Below are positions 3,388-25,177 of a stretch of 41,049 nt of DNA, in pieces. Origin of the DNA: Butyrivibrio sp. GTDB taxonomy: Bacteria > Bacillota > Clostridia > Lachnospirales > Lachnospiraceae. The stretch is from assembly GCF_017940685.1 (NCBI RefSeq), contig NZ_JAGAYD010000045.1, positions 1 to 41,049 on the forward strand, read 5' to 3'. The notes under the pieces were generated by a model. The model had not been told where the DNA came from, made no database searches, and saw nothing but the letters and a program-made list of their open reading frames with translations. Made by a program: the position numbers and the translations under genes. The stretch's first letter is position 1. Each line of letters begins with the position of its first letter.

Positions 3388-3403
3388 CAAGAACGGGTTT
3401 ATG

Positions 3404-10097: not shown

Positions 10098-10106
10098 ACT
10101 GATAAA

Positions 10107-10137
10107 AAAGAGGCCATCTGGTTGAGATGACCTCTTT
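10107..10137. terminator. Bidirectional terminator between the cyclase and aldo/keto reductase genes
   Basis: AAAGAGGCCATCT pairs with AGATGACCTCTTT (one G-T pair) around a five-base loop. It is A-rich on one side and T-rich on the other, suiting both convergent genes. Confidence 0.8.
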
Positions 10138-10158
10138 GATCTTTTATGAAAAGAAATC

Positions 10159-11151
10159 TCAGCTCAGGGAAATTTTATCGATTTCTCTGAGCTCTTCTTC
10201 TGTAAAGGCAGTGTTCTCGATAGCCTTGATGTTGTCCAGGATCTGAGAGGGCCTGGAAGCTCCTACAAGGACTGAAGTTACATAGCCGTCCTTTAAGATC
10301 CATGCAAGGGCCATTTCAGCAAGAGTCTGACCGCGCTTTGAAGCGATGTCGTTAAGAGCTCTTACCTTTACAAGAACGTCCTCGTTTATCCTGTTCTCCT
10401 GAAGGAATCTGCCATCTGTGCGGACTCTGCTGTCCTCAGGGATTCCCTTAAGGTATCTGTCTGATAAAAGACCCTGTTCAAGAGGAGAGAAACAGATAAT
10501 GCCTTTATTAAGCTCTTTTGCCTTCTCCTTAAGACCGTTCTTCTCAATCTTTCTGTCGAAGATGTTGTAGCGGTTCTGATTGATGATGAAAGGAACGTGA
10601 AGATCAGTTAAGATCTTGGTTGCCTTCTCAAGAGTAGGCCCGTCGTAGTTGGAAATGCCGACGTAGAGCGCTTTTCCGCTCCTTACAATCTGAGCAAGGG
10701 CTTCCATGGTCTCTTCAAGTGGAGTCTCAGGATCTGGTCTGTGATGATAGAAGATATCTACATACTCAAGGCCCATTCTCTTAAGGGACTGATCAAGGCT
10801 TGCGATGAGATACTTTCTGCTTCCCCAGTCGCCGTAAGGCCCTGGCCACATGTAGTATCCAGCCTTGGTAGAGATTATCATCTCGTCTCTGTAGGCTGCC
10901 ATGTCCTCTTTTAAAATCTTGCCAAAGTTTGCCTCGGCGCTTCCCTCTGCAGGGCCGTAGTTGTTGGCAAGGTCAAAGTGAGTTATACCGTTATCAAAAG
11001 CGGTAAAACACATCTGTTTCATGTTCTCGAAATTTCCAGTATCGCCAAAGTTGTGCCAAAGTCCAAGAGACACAGCAGGGAGCTTAAGGCCACTGGCTCC
11101 GCAGCGGTTATACTGCATATTTTCATATCTGTTTTCATTAGCTGTATACAT
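10159..11151 (-). CDS. yghZ: Aldo/keto reductase, YghZ (AKR14) type
   Basis: A 330-residue NADPH-dependent reductase closely resembling E. coli YghZ/Gpr, which reduces L-glyceraldehyde 3-phosphate and detoxifies methylglyoxal. The recognisable segments are GLKLPAVSLGLWHNFGD, THFDLANNYGP, ISTKAGYYMWPGPYGD and SLKRMGLEYVDIFYHHRPD. Catalytic D60, Y65, K96 and H136/H137 are present. The C-terminal cofactor segment VLVGASRPSQI is intact. The start has GGGAGG on the minus strand. It is divergent from a MerR-family gene with a perfect dyad in the shared promoter, so it is probably the regulator's target. The physiological substrate here is inferred from the family. Confidence 0.93.
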   Translation of the reverse strand: MYTANENRYENMQYNRCGASGLKLPAVSLGLWHNFGDTGNFENMKQMCFTAFDNGITHFDLANNYGPAEGSAEANFGKILKEDMAAYRDEMIISTKAGYYMWPGPYGDWGSRKYLIASLDQSLKRMGLEYVDIFYHHRPDPETPLEETMEALAQIVRSGKALYVGISNYDGPTLEKATKILTDLHVPFIINQNRYNIFDRKIEKNGLKEKAKELNKGIICFSPLEQGLLSDRYLKGIPEDSRVRTDGRFLQENRINEDVLVKVRALNDIASKRGQTLAEMALAWILKDGYVTSVLVGASRPSQILDNIKAIENTAFTEEELREIDKISLS

Positions 11152-11209
11152 GGTATACCTCCCTTTACATATATATTTATTATGTCATTTTTTCGATTCT
11201 TTACAAAGC

Positions 11210-11237
11210 ATAATACTTAAAGTACACTTTAAGTCAA
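11210..11237 (-). promoter_or_regulatory. MerR-type operator inside the yghZ promoter
   Basis: ACTTAAAGT (11215-11223), two bases, then ACTTTAAGT (11226-11234): a perfect 9-2-9 dyad. On the minus strand it lies between TTGACT (11232-11237) and TATTAT (11210-11215), which is where MerR-family activators bind. On the plus strand TTTACA (11200-11205) with TACACT 17 bases on could serve the regulator gene, giving autoregulation. Confidence 0.75.
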
Positions 11238-11260
11238 CAAAAAATTTTTGGAGGTCCAAA

Positions 11261-11722
11261 ATGACTTATACAATCGCCCAGATCTCAGAAAAATTCGACG
11301 TTGCGGCGTCTACCTTAAGGTATTATGAGGAGATAGGTCTTTTAACTAATGTGGAAAGAACTGACAATGGCCGTAGAGTGTACTCTGATGCCCATGTTGG
11401 AAGGCTGAGCGCCATAAACTGCTTCAAAAAAGCCGGAATGTCCATAAGTGAGATACAGGATTTCTTTGAATATGAGAAAAATGAAGAGAAGAGCATCGAT
11501 GATATGATGCGCCTTCTAAGACGCAGAAGCGAGATAATGCTTGAGGAGTTTGCAGAAAGCTACGAATCTTATGAGCATATCCTCAAGAAACTTGACTATT
11601 ATGGCCACATTGAGAAGGCGGTCAAACAAAAAAAACAGCTGCCAAAGTGGGCAAACTACAGAAACAAAGACTATCACCAGCAGGCCCTTGAGACAATCAT
11701 GCAAAGGCTGAAAAAGGACTGA
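11261..11722 (+). CDS. MerR-family transcriptional regulator
   Basis: A 153-residue regulator. The N-terminal MerR winged helix reads YTIAQISEKF, then STLRYYEEIGLL, NGRRVYSD and CFKKAGMSISEIQDFF. A long dimerisation helix and a short C-terminal segment follow. There is no cysteine-rich metal site of the MerR/ZntR kind; the type resembles aldehyde- or stress-responsive AdhR-like regulators next to oxidoreductases. ATG 11261 has GGAGG seven bases upstream; a longer frame from 11021 is antisense to yghZ and is rejected. The perfect dyad at 11215-11234 is the likely binding site, controlling yghZ and itself. Confidence 0.9.
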   Translation: MTYTIAQISEKFDVAASTLRYYEEIGLLTNVERTDNGRRVYSDAHVGRLSAINCFKKAGMSISEIQDFFEYEKNEEKSIDDMMRLLRRRSEIMLEEFAESYESYEHILKKLDYYGHIEKAVKQKKQLPKWANYRNKDYHQQALETIMQRLKKD

Positions 11723-15161: not shown

Positions 15162-15170
15162 CATGACTTT

Positions 15171-15203
15171 AAGGGTACTCACATGGAGTGCCCTTATTTT
15201 TTT
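15171..15203 (+). terminator. Terminator of the DUF2798 gene
   Basis: AAGGGTACTC (15171-15180) pairs with GAGTGCCCTT (15186-15195, one G-T pair), followed by A and seven T. Confidence 0.88.
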
Positions 15204-15211
15204 GTAAAAAA

Positions 15212-15242
15212 GTTAGCACAAGCTAACGTTAAGAGTTATAAT
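15212..15242 (+). promoter_or_regulatory. Dyad operator and promoter of the methyltransferase operon
   Basis: GTTAGC (15212-15217), ACAA, GCTAAC (15222-15227) is a perfect 6-4-6 dyad. TATAAT follows at 15237-15242, and TTAGCA within the left arm would be the -35 at 18 bases spacing. The same dyad core occurs upstream of the S-component gene (21230-21249). The size fits a TetR-family repressor; none is encoded in the window. Confidence 0.7.
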
Positions 15243-15275: not shown

Positions 15276-16067
15276 ATGAAAGCAGATTATAAAAATTGGA
15301 TGCCAAAGGGCATGGTAATGGGATTTGGATGCGCAGCACTTGTTTCGCTGGTTCTTTTTCTTGCACTGGGGATATCACCGATATTACCGGAAGGAAGCGC
15401 AAAAAGAGTCATCGGAATTGTGTTTCTGATCCTTACAGTTATGTTTTGTATCATGACAATTTGGATGTATCTGATGTACAGGGCTTTTTCTTATAACGGA
15501 AAGAGGCAGATGTCCAAACAGATCATCGAAGGTGTTGCATCTTACGTAAGGCTTCCTGATGGCGGTAAAGGGTTAGGTGTCGGATGTGGAAGCGGAGCAC
15601 TAACAATAGCTTGCGCAAAGAAAAATCCAGGGGCATCATTTACCGGAATCGACAGATGGGGCAAGGAATATGCGTCATTTAGCAAAAGCCTTTGTGAAAA
15701 CAATTCCAAAGCTGAAGGCGTAAGCAATACTTTTTTTATGCAGGGAGATGCATGTAAATTGCCGTTTGAGGATGAGTCTTTTGACGCAGTGACAAGTAAT
15801 TACGTGTATCACAATATTCCAAGTGGCGACAGACAGGAAATACTGCTGGAAACACTTCGTACATTAAAGAAGGGCGGCACATTTGCAATCCATGACATTA
15901 TGTCAAAGGCCAAATACGGCGATATGCAGTCGTTTGTGAAGAAGCTTAAGGAAATGGGATACGAAGAAGTGAAGCTTGTAGATACAACAAGCGGAATGTT
16001 TATGAACAAATGGGAGTCAACCTGGATGGGGCTTTCTGGTTCAGCAATTCTTATGGGGAGGAAGTAA
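15276..16067 (+). CDS. Membrane-anchored class I SAM methyltransferase
   Basis: A 263-residue protein, first gene of the operon. Two membrane helices (about 13-35 and 46-68) precede a Rossmann methyltransferase domain: motif I GLGVGCGSG (about 99-107), GIDRW, then the post-I and motif II segments QGDACKLPFEDESFDAVTSN and LRTLKKGGTFAIHD. The acidic residue usual before motif I glycines is replaced by Gly. ATG 15276 follows GGAGGAGGAAAG; the longer frame from 15183 runs through the upstream terminator and the promoter and is rejected. The membrane anchor suggests a lipid or membrane-embedded substrate, but the substrate is unknown. Confidence 0.87.
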   Translation: MKADYKNWMPKGMVMGFGCAALVSLVLFLALGISPILPEGSAKRVIGIVFLILTVMFCIMTIWMYLMYRAFSYNGKRQMSKQIIEGVASYVRLPDGGKGLGVGCGSGALTIACAKKNPGASFTGIDRWGKEYASFSKSLCENNSKAEGVSNTFFMQGDACKLPFEDESFDAVTSNYVYHNIPSGDRQEILLETLRTLKKGGTFAIHDIMSKAKYGDMQSFVKKLKEMGYEEVKLVDTTSGMFMNKWESTWMGLSGSAILMGRK

Positions 16068-16070
16068 GAA

Positions 16071-16694
16071 ATGGGACTATTTAAGAGCTTTGTTCGTCAA
16101 ACAAGAAAACCTGAAGGTATTCTTGGAAAAATGATGGTAAACGGGATGAATGGAGGACATGCCAAGATGGCAGATTGGGGCATGTCACATCTTAAAACCA
16201 TAGCACCCGAGGAAATAGTTGAGATAGGATGCGGAGGTGGAAGAAATGCCGGAGAACTTCTTAAGAAGTATCCATCATCACATGTAACAGCGATTGATTA
16301 TTCCGAAGTGTCAGTAAGCAAAGCAACTGAATATAATTCAGAGGCAATAAAGAGAGGGCGCTGTGAAGTAAAACAAGGAGACGTTTCAGCTTTGACACTA
16401 CCAGAGGGAAAGTATGACCTTGCCACAGCATTTGAAACCATATATTTTTGGCCGGGGCTTAAGGAGTGCTTTGCACAGGTGGCCAAGGTTTTAAAGCCGG
16501 GCGGAACATTTATGATAGTAAATGAGTCTGATGGCACGGATGAGACCAGCCTTAAATTCGAGAAGATAATCGATGGTATGAGATGCCATACCGTAGAGGA
16601 AATAGAAGGAGCACTGAAAGACGCCGGATTTAGTAAGGTTAAGTCAGATCACCATAAGAGCAAGCCGTGGATAACAGTTATTGCAAGAAAGTAG
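16071..16694 (+). CDS. Class I SAM methyltransferase
   Basis: A 207-residue soluble methyltransferase beginning three bases after the previous stop, with GGGGAGG inside the previous gene as ribosome site. Motif I is VEIGCGGGRN (about 50-59), followed by VTAIDYSEVSVSKA, QGDVSALTLPEGKYDLATAFETIYFW and the motif III strand VLKPGGTFMIVNE. It is unlike the first methyltransferase outside these motifs, so the pair is not a simple tandem duplication. The substrate is not predictable from sequence. Its place in the operon suggests a second methylation step on the same or a related molecule. Confidence 0.88.
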   Translation: MGLFKSFVRQTRKPEGILGKMMVNGMNGGHAKMADWGMSHLKTIAPEEIVEIGCGGGRNAGELLKKYPSSHVTAIDYSEVSVSKATEYNSEAIKRGRCEVKQGDVSALTLPEGKYDLATAFETIYFWPGLKECFAQVAKVLKPGGTFMIVNESDGTDETSLKFEKIIDGMRCHTVEEIEGALKDAGFSKVKSDHHKSKPWITVIARK

Positions 16695-16735
16695 GATGTA
16701 TGACCTCATAAGAGAATGATTTCGGAGAAATAGAT

Positions 16736-17236
16736 ATGTTATTGACTTTGTTTTTAGCAATAGTAACATGTGCAGCAATTACAATCATGATGTTTGCTGC
16801 CGTTGTATTTATCCAGGATAAAAAGATGTTTTCGGCAGCACCAAAAGAATTCAGGGAAGTGATAAAACCAAGAGATAAAGAACTTTTTTATGGTGCCAGG
16901 GCCACAGGCTGGATTCTCATGGTATTTAGTTTTCTTATGATCATCGGTTCGTGTGTGATCACCATATGGGACGGACTTAGAAGTGAGTATTCTTTCTGGC
17001 AGTTCTTTTTGAGATTTGAATTGATCCTCACTATATATAAAATCTATGACATGATCTGCTTTGACTATTTTCTGCTTATGAAGTTTCACTTCTTTCAGTT
17101 TTATTTTCCGGAAATAGAAGGCGTAAGTCAGAACAGAAAGTATGGATTTAATATAAAGAGTCAGCTGATAAAACTATTTATCGTGTTTCCGGCGGTCTCT
17201 GCCTTGGTGGCATGGCTATGCACCGCAATTTCATAA
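16736..17236 (+). CDS. Small polytopic membrane protein, unknown
   Basis: A 166-residue protein that I do not assign to a family. Four hydrophobic stretches are visible (about 2-26, 56-79, 85-112 and 145-165). The loop between the first two carries charged residues (KPRDKELFYGARA), and aromatic residues are abundant in the third (FDYFLLMKFHFFQFYF). Fourth-to-eighth genes follow closely in the same direction, so it belongs to the methyltransferase operon. It could be a membrane subunit or scaffold of that pathway (inference only). ATG 16736 has GGAGAAATAG upstream. Confidence 0.65.
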   Translation: MLLTLFLAIVTCAAITIMMFAAVVFIQDKKMFSAAPKEFREVIKPRDKELFYGARATGWILMVFSFLMIIGSCVITIWDGLRSEYSFWQFFLRFELILTIYKIYDMICFDYFLLMKFHFFQFYFPEIEGVSQNRKYGFNIKSQLIKLFIVFPAVSALVAWLCTAIS

Positions 17237-17256
17237 TTAGCTTAGGCGGGAGGTAA

Positions 17257-17931
17257 ATGATGAAGTCTAAACAAAGAATCCTTTTTGGTTGTTATGCTAT
17301 GGTACTTGCCATAATAGGAGATTATCTGCTTGGATATGGAACGATTGGTACATCCTCGGATCCTGATGCATATATGGGCTTATCCTGGAATGTGGCTCCT
17401 GACTGGAGATATGCGGTATCGTCTGTTCTCGGCTTTTTGTGTGCGGCTATGTTTGCTTATGCCGCTACAGAATTATTGAAGGTAATGGAAACAGAATATG
17501 ACCTTAAAGATTCCAAGCTTTATAAGCTGTTTAAAATTGCCAATTGGGGAGGAATCCTTTATTTCGCCTTTATCCATATAGGTATATGCATCTTGCCGGT
17601 TGTGTTTAATGCAGGTATGGAGGCTACCGGAGATATCCCCACTGCTGTTGGAATGACGGTCAGGGTACTGAAGAGCGAATTGGTGCCTTTGGCTACTGGA
17701 TTTTTGGTATGCGACCTTTTTGTTGCTATAGGATGGATCGGAATGGTTTTGAAGGGAATGATACCAGTAAAGAAGTGGATGATCATATGCTGCCCTGTAT
17801 TTGGAATTCTCTTTGGAAATTTGCTTAATCTGATATCTGAGGGACTGGATTCGGGATCTGAATCTTTCGGATGGCTTGTATTATATCTTGTTTGTGCTCT
17901 ATGCCTGACAAAAAAGAAAGAGGCGAATTGA
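17257..17931 (+). CDS. Polytopic membrane protein, unknown
   Basis: A 224-residue protein with about six membrane helices. The first helix carries a Gly-Asp pair (IIGDYLLGYG), and the first loop (ATIGTSSDPDAYMGLSW-like, residues 26-45) is polar. Later helices include LPLATGFLVCDLFVAIGWIGM-like and GILFGNLLNLISEGLD. These features recall uncharacterised Lachnospiraceae DUF families, but I cannot name one with confidence. GGGAGG precedes two adjacent ATG codons; either could start. The stop is separated from the hydrolase ATG by one base, implying translational coupling. Confidence 0.68.
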   Translation: MMKSKQRILFGCYAMVLAIIGDYLLGYGTIGTSSDPDAYMGLSWNVAPDWRYAVSSVLGFLCAAMFAYAATELLKVMETEYDLKDSKLYKLFKIANWGGILYFAFIHIGICILPVVFNAGMEATGDIPTAVGMTVRVLKSELVPLATGFLVCDLFVAIGWIGMVLKGMIPVKKWMIICCPVFGILFGNLLNLISEGLDSGSESFGWLVLYLVCALCLTKKKEAN

Positions 17932-17932
17932 C

Positions 17933-18676
17933 ATGTACATAAATGAATATGGAAATAAAGAATATCCGGTTGTGATTCTTCTTGCTCCTATGATGGTATC
18001 CGGTTCTGATCTGTATGAGCTGTTGTCTCCGTATTTTACAAAAGCATATCATATCATCGCTCCGGATCAGGGTGGACATGGCAAGTCAGGTGCTTATGTG
18101 AGTGCGGATGAAGAATATGATTGCCTAAAAAAATACCTTATGGAGAAAGGAATCAGGGACATAAAGCTTGCTTATGGAGCATCGCTTGGTGTAGCTGTGG
18201 CTTATAGGCTATTTCTTGATTCAGATTTTAAAGTGGAACGCGCCTGGTTTGATGGTGTTGCTCTTGCAGAAAATGCGGGATTCGCTGAATGGTTTATGAA
18301 AAAACTCTTCAGAAATAGGAAAAAGAAGCTTGAAAAAACGCATGTGGAAGCATCTGAAAGCCTTGTGAAGATGTACGGTTATGACTTCGCAAAGATGATG
18401 ACCAGGAACTTTGAAAGGATTACCCCGGAGGATATTGATGCGATATGTCACGCATGTTGTCATTATAATCTTCGCAAGTTAACAGACGCCGAGCAAAAGA
18501 AACTTCACCTTGATTTTGGTGAGAAAGACTTTGATCTTAAGTATTCAAAGAAATCGATTCCTGTGTATATGCCCAAAGCTGATATGAAGATCAGAAAGGG
18601 ATATGCGCACTGTGGATATATGGCAGATAAAACTGAAGAATACGTGAAAGAAATAGAAAGATTCATGGAGGCGTGA
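17933..18676 (+). CDS. Alpha/beta hydrolase
   Basis: A 247-residue alpha/beta hydrolase-fold protein. An early strand (VVILLAPMM) and the PDQGGHGKS loop precede the nucleophile elbow YGASLGVAVA, with Ser84 in G-x-S-x-G. A candidate catalytic histidine is H226 in GYAHCGYM near the C-terminus; the acid is not obvious. A cap region (about 112-180) contains a Lys-rich amphipathic stretch and a Cys/His cluster (CHACCHYN). Substrate unknown: an esterase, thioesterase or lipase role is possible. It is coupled to the previous gene and overlaps the spacing to the next (one base), so it is an integral part of the methyltransferase operon. Confidence 0.83.
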   Translation: MYINEYGNKEYPVVILLAPMMVSGSDLYELLSPYFTKAYHIIAPDQGGHGKSGAYVSADEEYDCLKKYLMEKGIRDIKLAYGASLGVAVAYRLFLDSDFKVERAWFDGVALAENAGFAEWFMKKLFRNRKKKLEKTHVEASESLVKMYGYDFAKMMTRNFERITPEDIDAICHACCHYNLRKLTDAEQKKLHLDFGEKDFDLKYSKKSIPVYMPKADMKIRKGYAHCGYMADKTEEYVKEIERFMEA

Positions 18677-18677
18677 G

Positions 18678-19535
18678 ATGGACATTTTACATCAAGGTGA
18701 GCGCAAATATCACATTGAGAAGAACACCGTACAAGAGACCTTGATCATTCCCTTGTATGGCAGAAAGGTATGCTCAGAACACTTTCCTGAATTGTTCAAA
18801 GATCCAGAAGCAGAGCGCATTTGCAGTATGCTGGATTATGACTTTGCAGAGAAAGGCAAGAAGATGGAAAGCGCGGTAGGACTTTTTGGCGCGTTGGAAG
18901 TTGCACAAAGACAGTATGATCTTGCCTGGGAAGTAAAGGATTATTTGAAGAAAAATCCGAATGCAGCCGTTGTAAATCTGGGATGTGGCCTAGATGATAC
19001 CTTTCGTAAGTGTGATAACGGGACATGCAAAGGGTATAATATCGATATGTCCGATGTGATCGCCGTCAGAAATCAGCTCCTTCCGGAAAGTGACAGGGAA
19101 AGAAATCTTGCATATGATCTTAATGATGAAACTTGGATGGATGAGATTGATGCAAAGTGTGGAGCAGTCTTTTTTGCATCTGGCGTGTTTTATTACTTTA
19201 AAACCGATGATGTGAAAGCTTTGTTTCAGAAAATGGCTAAGAGATTTCCGGGAGCCGTTATTGTTTTCGACAGCTGTAACAGGCGTGGAGCAAAGATGAT
19301 GACAAAAACCTGGCTTAAGGAAGCTGGAATAGCCGATGTTAGCACATTTTTCTCATTAGAGGACAAGGATGAGCTGAAGAAATGGTCTGATGATTTTGCA
19401 GATGTGTCCGCAAAGAGCTATATGCGTGGTTACAGGGACATCTACAAAGATGTGAGCTTCCTTCATAAACTGATGATCCACTTCTGTGACAGACTGGTAA
19501 AAATGATCATCGTAAAGATAGAGTTTAAGGGATGA
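18678..19535 (+). CDS. Leucine-carboxyl-methyltransferase-like O-methyltransferase
   Basis: A 285-residue SAM methyltransferase of the LCM/Tcmp group. The family signature VVNLGCGLDDTFRKCDN covers about residues 98-114. A YNIDMSDVIAVRNQLLPES segment, AVFFASGVFYYF and VIVFDSCNRRG follow. LCM-family enzymes methylate carboxyl or hydroxyl groups on proteins or polyketide-like small molecules, so a carboxylate or phenolic acceptor is possible here. It begins one base after the hydrolase stop, with GGAGGCGTGAG as ribosome site. It is the third methyltransferase of the operon and belongs to a different subfamily from the first two. Confidence 0.88.
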   Translation: MDILHQGERKYHIEKNTVQETLIIPLYGRKVCSEHFPELFKDPEAERICSMLDYDFAEKGKKMESAVGLFGALEVAQRQYDLAWEVKDYLKKNPNAAVVNLGCGLDDTFRKCDNGTCKGYNIDMSDVIAVRNQLLPESDRERNLAYDLNDETWMDEIDAKCGAVFFASGVFYYFKTDDVKALFQKMAKRFPGAVIVFDSCNRRGAKMMTKTWLKEAGIADVSTFFSLEDKDELKKWSDDFADVSAKSYMRGYRDIYKDVSFLHKLMIHFCDRLVKMIIVKIEFKG

Positions 19536-19548
19536 GAGGGGAAAATGA

Positions 19549-20223
19549 ATGTCAAAAGAAACTGAGCAGGTAACTGACAGGATTAAGAGTGCGTATCATA
19601 CGTCGAAAAACATTTATGATGATGTCTTAACTCAGGGAAGCGTTTTTAGCAGGTTATATATACGTTTCTTCTGGAGCGGAACGGACGATAATGAAATTGC
19701 AGAAAAGGTTCTGTCTTACATACCTGATGACTTTGATGGAAGGCTTTTGGATGTTCCGGTAGGAACTGCTGTATTTACGGAAAAGAAATGGAAGGGCTTG
19801 AAAAAAGCAGAGATCATCTGTCTTGATTACAGCGAAGACATGCTGGATAAAGCTAAAGACAGATTGAACTACTATGAAAATATTTCATTTGTGCAGGGTG
19901 ATGTGGGAAAGTTGCCATTTGAAGATGCGAGCTTCGATACAGTCCTTAGTATGAATGGTTTTCATGCTTTTCCTGATAAGAAAAAGGCTTTTCTTGAAAC
20001 GAACCGTGTTCTGAAGAAAGGTGGAAGCTTTATTGGCTGCTTCTATATTAAAGGGAAATCAAAGCGAACAGATTGGCTGGTAAGAAGGATACTTACAAAA
20101 AAAGGATGGTTTACACCGCCATTTCTGACTGAGGAGAGCCTTCATAACGTCCTTCATAAACTGTATTCTGAAGTGGAATGCCACATAGATGGCTCAATGG
20201 CATTTTTTAAGTGTAAAAAATAA
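19549..20223 (+). CDS. Class I SAM methyltransferase with DVPVGTA motif I
   Basis: A 224-residue methyltransferase. Motif I is RLLDVPVGTAVF (about 65-76) rather than the usual DxGxGxG; this variant is known in UbiE/Methyltransf_11-like proteins. IICLDYSEDMLDKAKDRL, QGDVGKLPFEDASFDTVLSMNGFHAF and RVLKKGGSFIGCFYI follow in order. A His residue in the NGFHAF segment may take part in catalysis (inference). No membrane segment is seen, although the N-terminal IRFFWSG region is hydrophobic. GAGGGGAAA precedes the ATG. It is the fourth soluble or anchored SAM enzyme in the operon. Confidence 0.87.
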   Translation: MSKETEQVTDRIKSAYHTSKNIYDDVLTQGSVFSRLYIRFFWSGTDDNEIAEKVLSYIPDDFDGRLLDVPVGTAVFTEKKWKGLKKAEIICLDYSEDMLDKAKDRLNYYENISFVQGDVGKLPFEDASFDTVLSMNGFHAFPDKKKAFLETNRVLKKGGSFIGCFYIKGKSKRTDWLVRRILTKKGWFTPPFLTEESLHNVLHKLYSEVECHIDGSMAFFKCKK

Positions 20224-20255
20224 TATAAGCCGTTTTAAGGGAGTAAAGATAAGAA

Positions 20256-21188
20256 ATGTTACGAAACTATAATAAAAAAGGACAGAAGCTTCCTCTGTTT
20301 GGCGTAGGGCCATATATGGTTTTTGGAATGGGTGCTCTGACGCTGATAGGGATTATCCTTTTTGGGTATGTGCTTAAGATTGGAGTTTTGAACTCTCCAT
20401 GGATACTTATTTTTAGAATAGCAGGAGCCGTATTGATAATATCCGGGATTGTCATTTGGTTTGTCGGCGCACTTCGCTCCGATATGGATAATAACATTGA
20501 AAGCAATAAGCTTAAGACAGATGGGATATATGCATGGGTCAGGAACCCTATGTACAGTGGCTGGTGGATCGCATTCGCCGGTATCACGCTTATGTGGCAC
20601 AACGTATGGATGCTTGTGTTGCCGTTTATTAACTGGATTATTATGACAATCACGCTCATTAACTCAGAAGAGAAGTGGCTTTCAGAGTTGTATGGCGCTG
20701 AATATGAGATATATAAGACTAAAGTAAATCGCTGTATTCCCTGGAAACCATGTAAAGACAGGATCTACGTAACGGAAATTTCGAATGCAAGATGGATTGC
20801 TTATGACATTCCAGGTAATGTGGGATGGATTATTTATATTTTCTGTCTTGCAAGGTGCTTTTCCATAAAATCTGACTTCATTTCTTCCCGGGGATTATCA
20901 GGAATCATGGTTATTGCAGTATTGCCGGCAGTTTTAATGATGATCGGAATAGCAGAGCTTGTTTCCGAAAGATTCGCGAAGCTGGATAGAAAACTTCCTA
21001 GAGTGAGGCTTTTAAGAGGCTTTGGTGCACTTGTCCTGGGAGGCATTCTGGGAATGGTTGTAAGCATGCTTGGATTAATATATGGATATTACATAGGCGA
21101 AAGTGAGTTGCTGTTTATATGGCTCATGCTTATTGGAAGCTTACTTTGCTTTGTATTTGCCGAACTGATTTATAAAACATACAGGTAA
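20256..21188 (+). CDS. Integral-membrane ICMT/PEMT-like methyltransferase with C-terminal membrane extension
   Basis: A 310-residue polytopic protein. Residues about 20-165 match the isoprenylcysteine carboxyl / phospholipid methyltransferase family: LKTDGIYAWVRNPMYSGWW (about 86-104), a Glu pair in NSEEKWL (about 136-142) and YEIYKTKVNRCIPW (about 150-163), the SAM-binding elements of this fold. Residues 170-310 add about four more membrane helices with no recognised domain, which makes it longer than typical family members. Such enzymes methylate lipids or lipid-linked groups inside the bilayer. It is the last gene of the operon; GGGAG precedes the ATG, and a hairpin follows the stop. Confidence 0.87.
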   Translation: MLRNYNKKGQKLPLFGVGPYMVFGMGALTLIGIILFGYVLKIGVLNSPWILIFRIAGAVLIISGIVIWFVGALRSDMDNNIESNKLKTDGIYAWVRNPMYSGWWIAFAGITLMWHNVWMLVLPFINWIIMTITLINSEEKWLSELYGAEYEIYKTKVNRCIPWKPCKDRIYVTEISNARWIAYDIPGNVGWIIYIFCLARCFSIKSDFISSRGLSGIMVIAVLPAVLMMIGIAELVSERFAKLDRKLPRVRLLRGFGALVLGGILGMVVSMLGLIYGYYIGESELLFIWLMLIGSLLCFVFAELIYKTYR

Positions 21189-21192
21189 CATT

Positions 21193-21219
21193 GAAAGATC
21201 CCGGGAAACCGGGACTTTC
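21193..21219 (+). terminator. Hairpin ending the methyltransferase operon
   Basis: GAAAG-A-TCCCGG pairs with CCGGGA-CTTTC around a GAAA tetraloop (one-base bulge). The T-run is short, so some read-through into the S-component gene is possible. Confidence 0.7.
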
Positions 21220-21229
21220 TTAGTTATAG

Positions 21230-21249
21230 GTGTTAGTTAATACTAACAC
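21230..21249 (+). promoter_or_regulatory. Second copy of the GTTAGY dyad, upstream of the S-component gene
   Basis: GTGTTAGT (21230-21237), TAAT, ACTAACAC (21242-21249): a perfect 8-4-8 dyad. Its core GTTAGT-N4-ACTAAC matches the 15212-15227 site at ten of twelve arm positions with the same spacer length. It is centred about 41 bases before ATG 21281. Confidence 0.72.
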
Positions 21250-21280: not shown

Positions 21281-21844
21281 ATGAAAGAATGGACAAAAAA
21301 GAAAACGTTATGGACGCTGCTTTACGCAGTTCTGTATGCAGTTGGAACAGCAATTGTATGTGTTACGGGTGCGATAACGCCAATACTATTTGTGTGCTAC
21401 CAGATTACGGCCGGAATCCTACTTTCAGGGATCATCATTTATGCATTCGGAAAAGTAAAGGCACCGGGAGTGGCCGTTTGTCTGGGAGTGGCAATGATCC
21501 TGTTACTTGTTTTGATAGGAGATGCTGTGGCATGGCATGTTATTCCGATTGTAGTGATAGTAATTCTTGCAGAGGCGATACGTACAATTTTCAAGTATAA
21601 CTGGACAGGGGATGTGATAAGTACAGTGATTATGACCTTCTCCAGTTTTGGCTACTATGGACAGATCTGGTTTAACAGGGATTACACATACGAGTGCGCA
21701 ATAGAAGAGATGCCTGCCGGCTATGCAGAGGGACTTATGGCTGCAAGCCCAATGTGGAGTTTGATAGTTGTGATCATTGCAGGAGTTGTATTGTCGGTTG
21801 TGGTTTCAAACATAACGACAAAACTGTTTAAGCTTGAAAAATAG
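21281..21844 (+). CDS. Trep_Strep/MptD-type ECF transporter S component (putative)
   Basis: A 187-residue protein with five to six membrane helices. The arrangement resembles the Trep_Strep/MptD group of putative ECF S components: KVKAPGVAVCLGV after helix two, an AEAIRTIFKYN segment after helix four, then SSFGYYGQIWF and a polar loop with Tyr and Cys (RDYTYECAIEEM). S components bind a small molecule and borrow the shared EcfAAT energising module, which is not in the window. GGGAGGAACC precedes the ATG. It has its own copy of the dyad that controls the methyltransferase operon, so its ligand is plausibly a substrate, precursor or product of that pathway. Assignment is by pattern, not certainty. 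Confidence 0.68.
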   Translation: MKEWTKKKTLWTLLYAVLYAVGTAIVCVTGAITPILFVCYQITAGILLSGIIIYAFGKVKAPGVAVCLGVAMILLLVLIGDAVAWHVIPIVVIVILAEAIRTIFKYNWTGDVISTVIMTFSSFGYYGQIWFNRDYTYECAIEEMPAGYAEGLMAASPMWSLIVVIIAGVVLSVVVSNITTKLFKLEK

Positions 21845-21862: not shown

Positions 21863-21904
21863 ATGCGACTGTGGCATGTGATTTATAAATTTATGCTAGA
21901 ATGA
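21863..21904 (+). CDS. 13-codon leader ORF upstream of clpS
   Basis: ATG 21863 stands eight bases after a near-perfect Shine-Dalgarno (AAGGAGGAG, 21846-21854) and reads MRLWHVIYKFMLE before TGA. The stop overlaps an ATG at 21901 that is in frame with clpS, so translational coupling could make a 123-residue ClpS variant. It may equally be a decayed start. No family can be assigned. Confidence 0.35.
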   Translation: MRLWHVIYKFMLE

Positions 21905-21972
21905 AGAAAAGTGTTTTTCATCTGCCAGATGACATTGCTTGCAGATGCACATTAATCCAGGAGGCATTACCT

Positions 21973-22272
21973 ATGGCCACAGGAAGTCAGACCAAGGAAA
22001 AGACATTTAGCAGGATAAAAGAGCCACGGCAGTATAACGTGATCATGATAAACGACGATTTCACCACCATGGAGTTTGTTGTTTCAGTTCTGGTGGACAT
22101 TTTTCACAAGGACCCGGTGAGCGCAGAGGCTATCATGCTTGGTGTTCATAAGAATGGACAGGCTGTTGTGGGAAGATACCCTTACGATATCGCAGTGACC
22201 AGGGTCAACAAGGCCCTTGCGAGAGCAAAAAAAGAGGGATTTCCCTTCAGAATGACAGTGGAGGAGGCATAA
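21973..22272 (+). CDS. clpS: ClpS N-degron adaptor
   Basis: A 99-residue adaptor that delivers proteins with bulky N-terminal residues to ClpA. The family core YNVIMINDDFTTMEFVVSVL carries N27, D28 and D29 of the alpha-amino-binding site, and H59 in MLGVHKNGQ corresponds to the binding-pocket histidine of E. coli ClpS. The C-terminal block matches the ClpA-docking face. ATG 21973 has AGGAGG eight bases upstream. A longer frame from 21901 adds 24 unconserved residues and lacks a ribosome site of its own. It is followed by clpA after a one-base gap. Confidence 0.95.
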   Translation: MATGSQTKEKTFSRIKEPRQYNVIMINDDFTTMEFVVSVLVDIFHKDPVSAEAIMLGVHKNGQAVVGRYPYDIAVTRVNKALARAKKEGFPFRMTVEEA

Positions 22273-22273
22273 T

Positions 22274-24502
22274 ATGGATCTTTCAAGAGAAGCTTCAGAG
22301 GTTTTTCAGAAAGCGGTAGCGTTTGCAAGCGAGAACAGCTATGAATATGTCACTCCTGAGATCGTTCTTTTAATGATCCTTGACGATGATACCTTTGCGG
22401 AGGCCTTCAGGGAGTGCGGCGGAGACCTAAGTATCCTTGATGGTAATCTCCGGAAATATATTAGAGAATACGTGGATAAGGCTGAAAACGGCCAGCCGGA
22501 GCTGTCCATTGGAACCAATTTTGTCATAAGCTTTGCGGGACAGAGCGCCTACAGTAGTGGAAGCGACCAGATCTACGTTCGGCACCTTGTTCACGCCATC
22601 TGGAACCTGGAAAACAGCTATGCAGTCTACTACATGGAACAGCAGGATATCAGCGAAGCTGACGTGCTGCAGGAAATGGCCATTATAGAATCAGAAAATG
22701 AAGAGATTTCTGAGGACGTGGATGGAAACCTCAAGCCCAAAGAGGACAAGGCAGGGATCAGCCTTTTTGCCCCATGCCTCAATGACACATTAAGGGACGT
22801 AAACCCTCTTATTGGCAGGGAAAAAGAGCTTGAGCGCACCATTCAGATCCTCTGCAGAAAAGATAAGAATAATCCTCTTCATATCGGAGAGACGGGCGTT
22901 GGAAAGACTGCCATAACCTATGGCCTTGTGGAGCGCCTTAAATCCGGGGATGTTCCGGATGCCCTAAAGGGCGCAAAGGTCTTTTCCCTTGATCTTGGCG
23001 GAATGCTGGCAGGAACCCAGTACAGAGGCGACTTTGAAAAGAGATTTAAGAAGGTCCTTTCAGAGATCGGCAAAGAGGAAAAGCCCATCATTTACATCGA
23101 TGAGATCCACAATCTCTCAGGAGCAGGTGCAGTTGGAGAAGGCTCTTTTGACGCATCAAACATGCTTAAGCCCTATTTGACTGACGGGCATATCAGGTTC
23201 ATCGGAGCCACTACCTTTGAGGAATACAAGAAATATTTTGAAAAGAATAAGTCCCTTGTCCGCAGGTTCCAGAATGTCGAGATAAAGGAACCAACTGAAG
23301 AAGAGACTGTGGCAATTTTAAACGGCCTTAAATCCAAATATGAGAAGTACCACGGCGTAAAGTACGGCAAGGGTATCATGGAATACGCTGTGAAGATGAG
23401 CGCCAAGTACATAAATGAGCGCTTTTTGCCGGATAAAGCCATCGATCTTATTGATGAGGCAGGTTCCTACAGAAAGCTTCATCCAACAGATAAAAAGGTC
23501 CAGATCGTAGATAAAGACGTGATAAATGAGATCCTTACCGGCGTCTGCAGAGTTCCTATCGAAACTGTGGATACAGATGATGCCGCAGGACTTGAGACGT
23601 TGGAAGAGCGCATAAAAACAAAGATTTTTGGCCAGGATGAGGCTATAAGCCAGGTGGTAAATGCCGTGAAGTTCTCAAAGGCAGGACTTATCGAAGACGG
23701 AAAGCCCCTTGCCAGCCTTCTGTTCGTGGGACCAACAGGTGTTGGTAAGACTGAGATAGCAAGGACTCTCTCTGAGGAGCTTGGAGTTAAACTGATCAGG
23801 TTCGATATGAGTGAATACGGCGAAAAGCATGCGGTAGCCAAGCTTATCGGTTCTCCTGCAGGTTACGTTGGCTATGAGGAGGGTGGAATCCTCACTGAAG
23901 CCATCAGGAAAAATCCATCCTGCGTACTGCTTCTTGACGAGATTGAGAAGGCTCACGCTGACATCTACAACGTGCTTTTGCAGGTTATGGATTATGCAAC
24001 TCTGACCGACAACCAGGGCAGGAAAGCTGATTTTCGGAATGTCATTATCATCATGACTTCAAATGCAGGTGCTAACAGGCTTGGTAAGAGCGGCATCGGA
24101 TTTATCAGCACAAACCAGGATGAAAGCGTGCTGACAGAGGCAGTCAAGAACACCTTCCAGCCTGAGTTCAGAAACAGGCTCAACAAGGTAGTTGTCTTTA
24201 ACAGCATGGATGATGATATGGCGAAAAGAGTCGTTGATAAGAAGCTAAAAGAGCTGTCAGCGCAGCTTCTTTTAAAGAAGATCACTCTTTCTGCTGATAA
24301 AAAAGCTAAAGACCTGTTAAAGGACAGGGGCGTAAGCCAGGAATTTGGAGCAAGAGAGATCGACAGGATCATAAGAAACGACATTAAACCGCTGTTTGTT
24401 GATGAGATTCTATTTGGAAAGCTTAAAAACGGCGGAAAGATAAAGCTTTCAGCCAGAAACAGGGAATTCACCATAGAATCCTCAAAAGTCGCAAGGAAGT
24501 GA
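22274..24502 (+). CDS. clpA: ClpA ATP-dependent Clp protease unfoldase
   Basis: A 742-residue class I Clp/Hsp100 ATPase of typical ClpA length. The N-domain (about 1-150) binds ClpS. The first AAA domain has Walker A GETGVGKT near residue 205 and Walker B IIYIDEIHNL. The second has GPTGVGKT near 485 and VLLLDEIEKAH. There is no long ClpB-type coiled middle domain. An IGF loop (SGIGFIS, near 607) is the expected ClpP-docking tripeptide. ClpP is not in the window. The gene is tightly linked to clpS and aat, so the three likely form one transcript dedicated to N-degron recognition and degradation. This set is uncommon in Firmicutes, where ClpC and MecA usually dominate. Confidence 0.96.
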   Translation: MDLSREASEVFQKAVAFASENSYEYVTPEIVLLMILDDDTFAEAFRECGGDLSILDGNLRKYIREYVDKAENGQPELSIGTNFVISFAGQSAYSSGSDQIYVRHLVHAIWNLENSYAVYYMEQQDISEADVLQEMAIIESENEEISEDVDGNLKPKEDKAGISLFAPCLNDTLRDVNPLIGREKELERTIQILCRKDKNNPLHIGETGVGKTAITYGLVERLKSGDVPDALKGAKVFSLDLGGMLAGTQYRGDFEKRFKKVLSEIGKEEKPIIYIDEIHNLSGAGAVGEGSFDASNMLKPYLTDGHIRFIGATTFEEYKKYFEKNKSLVRRFQNVEIKEPTEEETVAILNGLKSKYEKYHGVKYGKGIMEYAVKMSAKYINERFLPDKAIDLIDEAGSYRKLHPTDKKVQIVDKDVINEILTGVCRVPIETVDTDDAAGLETLEERIKTKIFGQDEAISQVVNAVKFSKAGLIEDGKPLASLLFVGPTGVGKTEIARTLSEELGVKLIRFDMSEYGEKHAVAKLIGSPAGYVGYEEGGILTEAIRKNPSCVLLLDEIEKAHADIYNVLLQVMDYATLTDNQGRKADFRNVIIIMTSNAGANRLGKSGIGFISTNQDESVLTEAVKNTFQPEFRNRLNKVVVFNSMDDDMAKRVVDKKLKELSAQLLLKKITLSADKKAKDLLKDRGVSQEFGAREIDRIIRNDIKPLFVDEILFGKLKNGGKIKLSARNREFTIESSKVARK

Positions 24503-24508
24503 TCCTAC

Positions 24509-25177
24509 ATGCCTGTGTACAAACTTGATGACAATCAGATATCTTTTCCACTGCCAACCCTTGCAAGGGAGGACGGACTTCTGGCCATAGGCGGGACTTT
24601 GTCCACGGAAAGGCTTGTACTTGCCTATTCCAATGGGATATTCCCATGGTACAATGAGGGAGACCCCATTTTATGGTGGTGTCCGAAGGAACGCTATATC
24701 ATAAGGCCAGAGAACATCCACGTATCCCACTCCATGAAGAAATTCATGAGAAAGCACGATGTAAAGGTGGAGCTCAACAGGGATTTCTCCCATACGATGC
24801 ACAGGTGCAGGGAAAAGAGAGAGACCACAGAGGAAGGTACTTGGATAACAACTGATATGGAAAGAGCCTACGCAGAGCTTGCAGGTAAGGGCCTTGCTCT
24901 AAGCGTTGAAGCTTATATAGACGGGCAATTGTCAGGGGGCCTCTACGGAGTGAACCTGGGAAAATGCTTTTTTGGAGAGAGCATGTACTCCGATATTGAG
25001 AATGGCTCGAAACTGGCACTAATTGGCCTTGCCCAGATACTTAATGAAAATGGCTATCTCCTCATAGATTGCCAGTTTCACACTGATCATCTTGAGAGCA
25101 TGGGCGGAGAGCCCATCAGTTATAAAGATTACATGGAGCTGGTGAAAAAAGGTACTAAACATAATGGAGGGACATGA
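24509..25177 (+). CDS. aat: Leucyl/phenylalanyl-tRNA-protein transferase
   Basis: A 222-residue transferase of normal length. It moves Leu or Phe from aminoacyl-tRNA to N-terminal Arg or Lys of proteins, creating a primary N-degron for ClpS. The conserved blocks are present: FPLPTLAREDGLLAIGG, AYSNGIFPWYNEG, WWCPKER, GTWIT, LSVEAYIDGQLSGGLYGVNLGKCFFGESMYS and LIDCQFHTDHLESMGG. It begins six bases after the clpA stop. With clpS-clpA it completes the pathway from tagging to unfolding. Its stop overlaps the start of the next membrane-protein gene (ATGA at 25174-25177). Confidence 0.95.
   Translation: MPVYKLDDNQISFPLPTLAREDGLLAIGGTLSTERLVLAYSNGIFPWYNEGDPILWWCPKERYIIRPENIHVSHSMKKFMRKHDVKVELNRDFSHTMHRCREKRETTEEGTWITTDMERAYAELAGKGLALSVEAYIDGQLSGGLYGVNLGKCFFGESMYSDIENGSKLALIGLAQILNENGYLLIDCQFHTDHLESMGGEPISYKDYMELVKKGTKHNGGT

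Follow-up and report, generated by a model that had tools for sequence, protein, structure and literature searches.

In Staphylococcus aureus, the SAM-dependent methyltransferase Spm methylates the carboxylate of pyochelin, one esterification of this siderophore among others (PMC11449898), and methylated pyochelin has a lowered affinity for Fe(III), according to the accessible text of a second report (PMC12077171). The equibactin locus eqbA-N of Streptococcus equi ICESe2, in the part of the account available (PMC3672683), combines a DtxR-like repressor with a dedicated importer (EqbHIJ), a YbtPQ-like pair (EqbKL), a membrane alpha/beta hydrolase (EqbN) and NRPS genes that build a thiazoline siderophore; the sole methyltransferase mentioned in that part is an NRPS domain. 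An ECF-type transporter of Staphylococcus lugdunensis carries heme and helps the cell to overcome iron limitation, with no methyltransferase set seen in the accessible portion of the report (PMC7299338).

Here we describe an operon in a 41,049-nucleotide stretch of Butyrivibrio sp. DNA (the window). Capping of a siderophore carboxylate in competition for iron, as described for Spm, is the action that we propose by functional analogy. Unlike Spm, a single enzyme, the operon combines five methyltransferases with a hydrolase and membrane proteins, and the methyltransferases stand behind an iron-type operator. The locus and its regulon recall equibactin in a DtxR-type repressor, a putative importer component, an ABC pair and an alpha/beta hydrolase, but no such NRPS genes were found in the window's genome; as in S. 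lugdunensis, a putative ECF-type component is tied to iron limitation. Like DtxR/IdeR iron regulons, the regulon has palindromes ahead of Feo, flavodoxin and transport genes and a repressor with DtxR-type Met and Cys. Its motif is GTTAGY-N4-RCTAAC, and its regulated set includes a methyltransferase operon, which may have counterparts in other DtxR regulons.

Eight genes in one operon

Eight codirectional ORFs from the window's ORF list occupy 15276-21188, with intergenic gaps of 3, 41, 20, 1, 1, 13 and 32 bases in order (three of seven junctions are of 1-3 bases), in agreement with a sequence-only reading of this DNA (Table 1). Pfam likewise confirmed its count of five methyltransferases of different families, which are joined by one hydrolase and two membrane proteins. 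Both membrane proteins had been called orphans; m166 indeed has no match, but the other belongs to a Pfam family, DUF6796. The first ORF is open from 15183, but alignments with relatives begin at the ATG at 15276, where a ribosome-binding site is present, so the MT1 start given earlier is right.

Table 1 Coordinates of the operon, its flanking signals and the following gene
Feature	Position in window	Strand	Basis
Terminator-like hairpin between upstream DUF2798 gene and operon	15170..15196	+	11-pair stem then T run; consensus match
Operator 1, perfect palindrome GTTAGC-ACAA-GCTAAC	15212..15227	.	Motif search
Promoter-like TTAGCA-18-TATAAT	15213..15242	+	Promoter scan
MT1: class I methyltransferase, N-terminal hydrophobic two-segment anchor	15276..16067	+	Methyltransf_11 66.7 bits
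MT2: soluble class I methyltransferase	16071..16694	+	Methyltransf_25 70.7 bits
m166: 166-aa membrane protein	16736..17236	+	Unmatched in Pfam and NCBIfam at E up to 0.01
DUF6796 membrane protein	17257..17931	+	PF20599, 207 bits
ABHa: alpha/beta hydrolase-like, GASLG nucleophile elbow	17933..18676	+	Pfam sub-threshold
LCM: leucine-carboxyl-methyltransferase-type enzyme	18678..19535	+	PF04072 37.0 bits (cut-off 22.3)
MT3: class I methyltransferase, UbiE/BioC-like	19549..20223	+	Methyltransf_11 75.7 bits
ICMT/PEMT-type membrane methyltransferase	20256..21188	+	PEMT PF04191 51.9 bits (cut-off 25)
Terminator-like hairpin after operon	21199..21214	+	6 pairs; consensus match
Operator 2, GTTAGT-TAAT-ACTAAC	21232..21247	.	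Motif search; precedes Trep_Strep gene
Trep_Strep/MptD-type putative ECF S component	21281..21844	+	PF09605 89.1 bits; behind operator 2

Most of the enzymes are members of large generic superfamilies (Pfam, NCBIfam). Among the matches listed (the best 25 for MT1, MT2 and MT3), no NCBIfam model, resistance models included, exceeded its cut-off for any operon gene. At motif-I position 101 MT1 has Gly where every other aligned copy has Asp or Glu, so the window's copy may be weakly active. The m166 family includes paralogues of 160-168 aa from related clusters, and two of its Asp residues, D105 and D110, are invariant among 27 aligned sequences; the m166 structure model is confident, yet without a match among solved folds. 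ABHa, despite its elbow motif, had a Pfam alpha/beta hydrolase score of 18.9, under the cut-off of 25.8.

LCM is a predicted carboxyl O-methyltransferase that scores above the PF04072 gathering threshold and has a PPM1-like fold. With Foldseek hits ranked by E-value, the top fold matches of its model were the leucine carboxyl methyltransferases PPM1 and LCMT-1, and by TM-score the mycobacterial ML2640c stood above them (0.69-0.72). Identity to PPM1/LCMT-1 is only 12-19%, and LCM scores 38 against TIGR00027 (NCBIfam cut-off 93.55). The ICMT/PEMT-type protein also matches PF04140 (26.8 vs 24), and both of its Pfam matches fall within residues 81-148, but among the matches listed it lies under every NCBIfam equivalog cut-off, that of isopcys_mtase included (49 vs 160). 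Its methyltransferase part covers approximately residues 1-165 and is followed by an extra hydrophobic C-terminal half, missing in several relatives. The Pfam PEMT family is not phospholipid-specific, and among the matches listed NCBIfam PmtA gave MT2 and MT3 just 27-28 bits against a cut-off of 390, which does not identify either as a phospholipid methyltransferase.

Membrane segments were predicted for MT1, m166, the DUF6796 protein and the ICMT/PEMT-type protein, and for none of MT2, ABHa, LCM and MT3. Pairwise dN/dS was 0.03-0.12 in the eight of nine genes for which it was computable (three comparisons); for ABHa, each of the three was saturated at synonymous sites. As judged from these ratios, the eight genes are under purifying selection. 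A near relative (G029) carries the operon in shrunken form.

An iron-type operator and its regulon

The earlier reading overlooked two elements ahead of the operon, an operator and a promoter-like site, as well as Trep_Strep, a ninth gene behind an operator of the same type. The −35 hexamer of the promoter-like site, found in a scan that was at chance level over the window (19 found, 18.7 expected), falls inside operator 1, and a repressor bound there would occlude it. None of 200 first-order resamples of the window contained an exact operator site; at a tolerance of two mismatches, the window itself held about as many sites as chance predicts (4 vs 3.6 expected).

The own genome has nine exact sites, against one for the reversed control, each of the nine located at a gene start or shortly ahead of one: FeoA-FeoB/DtxR, a Fur-like ORF, FeoA-FeoB, flavodoxin, DUF3793, a TetR/ABC-pair junction, a surface protein, MT1 and Trep_Strep. 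Across 61 Butyrivibrio genomes there were 455 sites versus 28 for the control. Of 21 MT1 loci in the genus, 17 have an exact operator in the 500 bp that precede the gene, and the other four have none there. In other genera such an operator preceded MT1 in 4 of 25 loci, with two more at one mismatch, and it was found in none of 11 loci labelled 'Bacteroidales'.

As in a DtxR-type regulon, the operon has its operator in common with genes for ferrous-iron uptake and for the repressor. In alignment, the DtxR-family repressor beside FeoAB carries the Met and Cys of DtxR at positions occupied by Asp and Glu in native MntR. We take these residues to correspond to DtxR Met10/Cys102, and chain 1on2, which shows Met in the alignment, is presumably an engineered MntR. 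By NCBIfam the repressor is nearer MntR, yet below the cut-off (100.1 vs 153). The role of the Cys in a DtxR-type repressor is stated in the available part of PMC3672683.

The iron link of the operon is strong, and the operon appears, from its regulatory sequences, to be induced by iron shortage. The sequence-only reading had placed its substrate among lipids or lipid-linked molecules. This is not supported: an operator common to the FeoAB, flavodoxin and DtxR genes, together with MT1 copies beside iron-uptake genes elsewhere, indicates iron limitation and siderophore-type transport instead.

Transport genes and scaffold synthetases

Through Trep_Strep, the iron regulon gains a putative S component of ECF type, as in equibactin/yersiniabactin-type uptake, although Trep_Strep scores under the NCBIfam TIGR02185 cut-off (36.7 vs 76.45). 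EcfT and EcfA do not lie beside it in the window, where clpS-clpA come next, and ABC/ECF-like ATPase matches elsewhere in the own genome are distant (best 38% identical). In one genome (G016), genes for an NRPS, a thiazolinyl imide reductase and an aryl-AMP ligase accompany this operator and a member of the Trep_Strep family. Given the heme cargo in S. lugdunensis, Trep_Strep need not carry a siderophore. The regulon also includes an exporter-fold ABC pair, for which MsbA-type NCBIfam models rank first, none above cut-off.

The absence of a scaffold-building enzyme from the operon, pointed out earlier, extends to the own genome for NRPS condensation domains (0 at E 1e-20) and NIS synthetases (IucA/IucC; 0 at E 1e-5), although in an assembly 94.8% complete and in 281 contigs a missing NRPS is no proof. 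Neither synthetase type occurred among the 30 window proteins scanned; with none in or near it, the locus does not qualify as a siderophore biosynthetic cluster of NRPS or NIS type. MT1 showed no association with NRPS over 61 genomes (11/19 vs 23/42).

MT1 neighbourhoods in other genomes

Cluster or iron partners, among them FeoB, ABC pairs, Trep_Strep and other cluster enzymes, were present in 88 of 100 MT1 neighbourhoods and in none of 19 control stretches; 12 loci had no partner and 29 had none of ten cluster-enzyme families. Gene orders included operator-MT1-MT2-FeoA-FeoB (L082), ABC pair-MT1-LCM (L115 and L127), operator-FeoB-DtxR-MT1 (L154) and MT1-MT2-Trep_Strep (L170). Metallo-beta-lactamase-fold domains are fused to MT1 or MT3 in L121, L125, L126 and L082, and larger relatives hold an ApbA-type reductase, a GT28-type glycosyltransferase, methyltransferases and hydrolases.

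The concern that the genes might never occur together elsewhere was thus not borne out; they recur in many genera. On this comparative evidence the operon is a real gene set and no chance assembly, several of its proteins recurring together in other genomes. Of the undescribed pathway proposed from the sequence, a real, apparently undescribed and co-inherited set stands; one fixed route is doubtful, since the 100 loci show 38 partner-set combinations (the empty set counted), a variation that arises partly from contig ends. With partner sets varying this freely, the gene set looks like a modular enzyme kit.

A candidate function and its alternatives

We tentatively favour, at somewhat below an even chance, an operon induced by iron starvation that modifies siderophore-like chelators; both the substrate and the direction (processing versus synthesis) are inferred. 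With sufficient ferrous iron, the DtxR-type repressor would sit on the −35 box; when iron is low, its release would allow expression together with Feo and an importer of a siderophore-like chelator. The imported chelator, or its apo form, would then be modified at the membrane's inner face. The LCM-type enzyme would form an ester on a carboxylate, donors such as phenolate, nitrogen or sulphur would be capped by the class I and ICMT/PEMT-type enzymes, and the hydrolase would cleave an ester, amide or lactone. Altered in this way, the chelator would free its iron and be unable to rebind it. The free variation of partner sets would suit an enzyme kit that must cope with many chelators.

The operon might instead finish a small metallophore or siderophore that is made and secreted, from a precursor that is neither NRPS- nor NIS-derived, such as an aromatic acid. 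The same iron operator, the enzymes of the larger relatives and the exporter-fold ABC pair would suit such tailoring, but we consider it unlikely: the own genome lacks NRPS condensation domains and NIS synthetases (the two covered by the search), MT1 does not associate with NRPS, and so many partner combinations, even with contig ends explaining part, are unlike a fixed route. If iron limitation led the cell to remodel a hydrophobic component, such as a membrane lipid or a quinone-like molecule, this would account for the four membrane proteins, one of ICMT/PEMT type. Such remodelling is quite unlikely, given the four proteins without membrane segments, PEMT/ICMT matches under the NCBIfam cut-offs of named enzymes, and MT1 neighbourhoods that, in a systematic search for iron and cluster partners, contain iron transport and regulation genes.

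Detoxification of sideromycin-like antibiotics or toxins that enter by siderophore transporters, inactivated by methylation, hydrolysis or transfer, draws on the repertoire of modifying enzymes, the metallo-beta-lactamase-fold fusions, the variable gene content and, within the regulon, TetR regulators together with ABC pairs of exporter fold. We rate it improbable: no resistance model exceeded its cut-off among the NCBIfam matches listed for the operon genes, and the closest documented methyltransferase targets the siderophore itself (PMC11449898). That unrelated small methyltransferases gathered by chance in an ordinary operon, with an incidental iron linkage, is very improbable. The generic superfamilies and the missing motif-I acid of MT1 would be in keeping with it, but the operator before MT1 across the genus, purifying selection and the partner linkage, absent from controls, contradict it.

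Beyond chelator modification by this operon, a broader, more doubtful proposal is that a horizontally shuffled, iron-regulated arsenal in gut and rumen anaerobes imports, strips and disables competitors' siderophores, a 'siderophore resistome'. Its members would be methyltransferases, reductases, small membrane proteins and hydrolases (alpha/beta, ATC-type and metallo-beta-lactamase-type), its combinatorial gene content would mirror chelator diversity, and methyl capping of ligands would be a route of iron release.

Significance

To our knowledge, iron acquisition by Lachnospiraceae without siderophore synthetases in rumen and gut has been little explored, and we know of methylation-based siderophore disabling for single enzymes only. 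The iron-type operator ties unnamed proteins (DUF6796, PF14196 relatives, the m160-168 membrane family and several methyltransferases) to one physiological state, making the function of these enzymes directly testable. If the siderophore reading is true, methylation-based siderophore disabling would be a widespread, modular strategy, and it would also be a source of new chelator-modifying enzymes, among them methyltransferases for carboxyl and phenol groups and hydrolases for thiazolines or esters.

Organization of the operon

All eight + strand genes that a sequence-only reading had claimed for the operon are present, separated in order by 3, 41, 20, 1, 1, 13 and 32 bases, and the 20 bases 5' of each start are purine-rich, which we read as ribosome-binding-site-like. 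The 5' flank holds a two-component system as well as a DUF2798 gene; on the 3' side, a Trep_Strep (MptD-type) gene for a putative ECF S component is followed by clpS-clpA-aat, a row that looks like a complete bacterial N-degron module, here in a member of the Lachnospiraceae. Further along, the scanned neighbours of a DUF1016/YhcG gene encode a PAP2 protein and a surface-type protein with an MBG domain. The window, contig 154 of a 3.67 Mb assembly (281 contigs, 94.8% complete), contained no Rfam match and no tRNA, and a reading of it as carrying an RNA element was dropped on these empty scans.

Features of the window and of related loci (positions refer to the window unless a locus is named)
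Feature	Position	Strand	Description
Terminator-like hairpin	15170-15196		before the operon
Operator 1	15212-15227		GTTAGC-ACAA-GCTAAC, precedes MT1
Promoter-like element	15213-15242		TTAGCA-18-TATAAT, overlaps operator 1; promoter scan alone at chance level
Operon	15276-21188	+	eight genes
MT1	operon gene 1	+	class I methyltransferase, hydrophobic anchor at N-terminus
MT1 motif I	15570-15584	+	GLGVG, residues 99-103
MT2	operon gene 2	+	class I methyltransferase, soluble
m166	operon gene 3	+	membrane protein, 166 aa
DUF6796	operon gene 4	+	membrane protein
ABHa	operon gene 5	+	alpha/beta hydrolase-like, GASLG elbow
LCM	operon gene 6	+	leucine-carboxyl-methyltransferase-type enzyme
MT3	operon gene 7	+	class I methyltransferase
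ICMT/PEMT	20256-21188, operon gene 8	+	ICMT/PEMT-type membrane methyltransferase
Terminator-like hairpin	21199-21214		after the operon
Operator 2	21232-21247		GTTAGT-TAAT-ACTAAC, precedes Trep_Strep gene
clpS-clpA-aat	21901-25177		consecutive clpS, ClpA-type AAA protein, aat (leucyl/phenylalanyl-tRNA protein transferase)
DUF1016/YhcG gene	35517-36590		PDDEXK-type nuclease
L064 (own genome)			operator at TetR/ABC-pair junction
L065 (own genome)			two operators: FeoA-FeoB/DtxR-family intergenic region; 5' end of Fur-like ORF
L066 (own genome, G000:C156)	8667-11526		operator at 913-aa surface protein
L067 (own genome)			three operators, at FeoA-FeoB, flavodoxin, DUF3793
Short Fur-like proteins	L065 3691-3942; L042 2321-2593; L068 7782-8015		77-90 aa, behind iron operators
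L052 (G029:C24)	1839-3400		part of MT1, then MT3, 167-residue ICMT match
L082 (G004)			operator-MT1-MT2-FeoA-FeoB
L115, L127			ABC pair-MT1-LCM
L154			operator-FeoB-DtxR-MT1
L170			MT1-MT2-Trep_Strep
L212 (Coriobacteriaceae-labelled)			P-type ATPase, ABC pair, LCM, MT1, m166

LCM has the best-defined predicted chemistry of the operon enzymes, because it scores above its Pfam cut-off and its fold hits are PPM1 and LCMT-1. These two enzymes, both of which form esters on carboxylates, have the best E-values among the matches to its AlphaFold model (pLDDT 88.7), with identities of 12-19%; the TM of mycobacterial ML2640c is higher (0.69-0.72). For LCM, phmmer against solved structures returned one weak unrelated match only. 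Solved relatives of MT1 are methyltransferases with varied functions. m166 had neither a Pfam nor an NCBIfam match up to E 0.01, and its family keeps two invariant Asp across 27 aligned sequences. Its confident, all-helical model (pLDDT 89.7) matched no solved fold better than E 3.2. The second hydrophobic half of the ICMT/PEMT protein (about residues 165-310) is missing in several relatives of 170-185 aa.

dN/dS was 0.03-0.12 in 13 of the 26 comparisons listed, those with unsaturated synonymous sites, covering eight of nine genes with the hydrolase outside; these comparisons show purifying selection. At position 101, within motif I, MT1 carries Gly, at which Asp or Glu stands in 152 of 154 aligned rows (some repeating one gene); the remaining two rows come from the window. 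This glycine may be a sequencing error, or mark a weak enzyme or early decay. In the close relative G029, whose flanking kinase and ClpA are 99% the same as in the window, the L052 stretch of a fragmentary assembly had, among the matches listed, no MT2, m166, DUF6796, hydrolase, LCM or Trep_Strep: the operon has collapsed in a near-identical chromosomal neighbourhood.

A putative iron-type operator and its regulon

The sequence-only reading left unmentioned two perfect palindromes (GTTAGY-N4-RCTAAC), before MT1 and before the Trep_Strep gene. No exact operator arose in 200 resamples of the window; matches with up to two mismatches numbered 4 against 3.6 expected, so that only the exact sites exceed chance. 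The own genome holds 9 exact sites versus 1 for the reversed control, and the 61 genomes of the genus hold 455 forward-strand sites versus 28 for the control, with at least one site in 59 of the 61.

Several own-genome sites lie at iron genes. The DtxR-family protein encoded between FeoAB sites has DtxR-like Met and Cys at the positions occupied by Asp and Glu in native MntR, although its NCBIfam score is nearest MntR, below cut-off; the presence of this Cys is associated with a response to Fe(II) (PMC3672683). The operator is a putative, iron-type site of a DtxR-type repressor. The 913-aa protein at L066 has an apparent signal peptide, several look-alikes on the same contig and, as its sole Pfam match, a weak coiled-coil below cut-off. 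The short proteins behind iron operators, assigned as Fur-like by Pfam FUR (L042), by similarity (L068) or by eye (L065), look like truncated Fur-family members and might be small real regulators.

At E <= 1e-40, 19 of 61 genomes in the genus and 26 of 250 in the family carry MT1 relatives, and at class level an MT1 profile hit 8 of 291 genomes (own genome included throughout). Counting our own and merging two rows from one interrupted gene, the genus has 21 distinct MT1 loci, and in 17 of them an exact operator lies no more than 500 bp upstream of MT1; the four without one are L134, L136, L146 and L149, the last a fragment. In other genera, four of 25 loci have an exact operator in the 500 bp upstream and two more have one with a single mismatch; neither form was found there in the other 19. 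At the own genome's site density the chance of an operator in 500 bp is 0.0012, a figure for one locus at a time, since the loci are not independent.

Gene neighbourhoods of MT1

As MT1 neighbourhoods we took 20 loci from the family search (L112-L131) and, from a profile scan of a contig collection with 336 confirmed relatives, the best 80; they were set against 19 arbitrary stretches from genomes also carrying MT1 (298 kb, versus 1447 kb for the MT1 loci). Queries were drawn from this genus's clusters, with identity and length thresholds that we set ourselves. One or more cluster-enzyme or iron/transport features, with the operator counted among them, were found in 18/20 family loci and 70/80 of the best 80, and in none of the 19 controls. 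The two sets of MT1 loci are not fully independent: the contigs of L159 and L114 are equal in length, and so are those of L193 and L117. A cluster enzyme alone was present in 12/20 and 59/80, and an iron/transport feature alone in 13/20 and 53/80. Twelve loci were without a partner (L113, L126, L155, L168, L169, L182, L187, L203, L209, L210, L221 and L228), and many MT1 loci end at contig edges.

The 100 loci contain 38 combinations of ten partner families, counting the empty set (29 loci); MT2 alone accounts for 17. Some of this variation stems from loci cut at contig ends. L121, L125 and L126 encode MT1 joined to a metallo-beta-lactamase-type domain, L119 encodes MT1 joined to an ApbA-type reductase, and in L082 it is MT3 that carries a metallo-beta-lactamase-type domain; the continuation of the MT1 start into an FtsX-type stretch in L131 may be an artefact. 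In the larger relatives, with Pfam run on representatives only, we found added PF14196 (ATC-hydrolase) proteins and more alpha/beta hydrolases (G012, G013, G019 and G020), an ApbA-type reductase (G012, G013 and G019) and a GT28-type glycosyltransferase (G012 and G019). PF14196 proteins or relatives recur as several divergent copies in iron-linked clusters (L042, L048, L122, L153, L160 and L177), which suggests an iron or siderophore role for the family. Eleven 'Bacteroidales'-labelled records are all metagenome bins and so no more than suggest cross-phylum transfer. A plasmid search gave no match for MT1, DUF6796 or m166, and for LCM gave 77 records, all below 60% identity, with two inspected regions uninformative; plasmid carriage was dropped on these results.

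Candidate substrates and proposed function

Comparison of these genomes establishes an iron-type operator and a conserved linkage to iron genes. A lipid pathway, proposed in the sequence-only reading and considered first, was accordingly lowered: the neighbours of MT1 are iron genes, and among the models listed no named lipid-enzyme model reached its cut-off. Siderophore genes do occur with this regulatory system. Under the same operators, G016 has an island with two Trep_Strep-EcfT-EcfA sets, ABC pairs, an aryl-AMP ligase, NRPS proteins and a thiazolinyl imide reductase (TIGR01761, 228.7 bits versus a cut-off of 188.8), and G035 has similar transporters and condensation domains on one contig; the operator and the Trep_Strep family therefore occur with siderophore genes in the genus. 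Among the best 60 of 299 PDB matches to one ABC protein from the own genome's regulon, the highest-placed bacterial half-transporters are 6p6i, which we take to be YbtPQ, and IrtA, which imports mycobactin; MsbA comes after them, and eukaryotic multidrug transporters outrank all three; in NCBIfam, MsbA-type models come first, none above cut-off.

Tailoring of the organism's own siderophore by the operon is a reading that we have lowered. The own genome has no condensation-domain match, and IucA/IucC was found in none of the 61 genus genomes, our own included. Condensation domains occur in 11 of 19 MT1-bearing versus 23 of 42 MT1-less genomes (Fisher p = 1; p = 0.72 for MT1 and NRPS in 35 high-quality genomes), and partner sets vary freely. 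Because there is neither an own NRPS match nor an MT1-NRPS association, the enzymes are unlikely to complete an NRPS siderophore made by the cell itself. A further cargo could be haem, by analogy with an ECF-type transporter of S. lugdunensis that carries it (PMC7299338).

We favour modification of imported chelators. Low iron would derepress the operon, a chelator would enter through an ECF or YbtPQ/IrtAB-like transporter, and it would then be modified at the membrane. Methylation could cap a donor carboxylate or phenolate and lower iron affinity, by analogy with Spm and pyochelin in S. aureus, for which this effect of capping is described (PMC11449898, PMC12077171). The hydrolase, joined in relatives by PF14196 and metallo-beta-lactamase-type proteins, might cleave ester or amide bonds or thiazoline rings; of the proposed steps, cleavage is the least certain.

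Among the papers listed from the literature searched, which covered few subscription papers, none was seen to describe the gene set or its iron operator or to link DUF6796, Trep_Strep or the methyltransferase set to iron; DUF6796 did not occur there and Trep_Strep occurred once. An MptD lead in S. saccharolyticus, a bare table entry, was set aside. With siderophore inactivation by methylation, the operon would share its proposed mode of action, inside a DtxR-type iron regulon; unlike it, the set here combines several enzymes, varies in content and lacks a synthetase. By proposed function it resembles the Spm class, of which it is at most a candidate member. The free mixing of partners across the MT1 loci fits an enzyme kit that deals with varied chelators more readily than it fits one fixed route.
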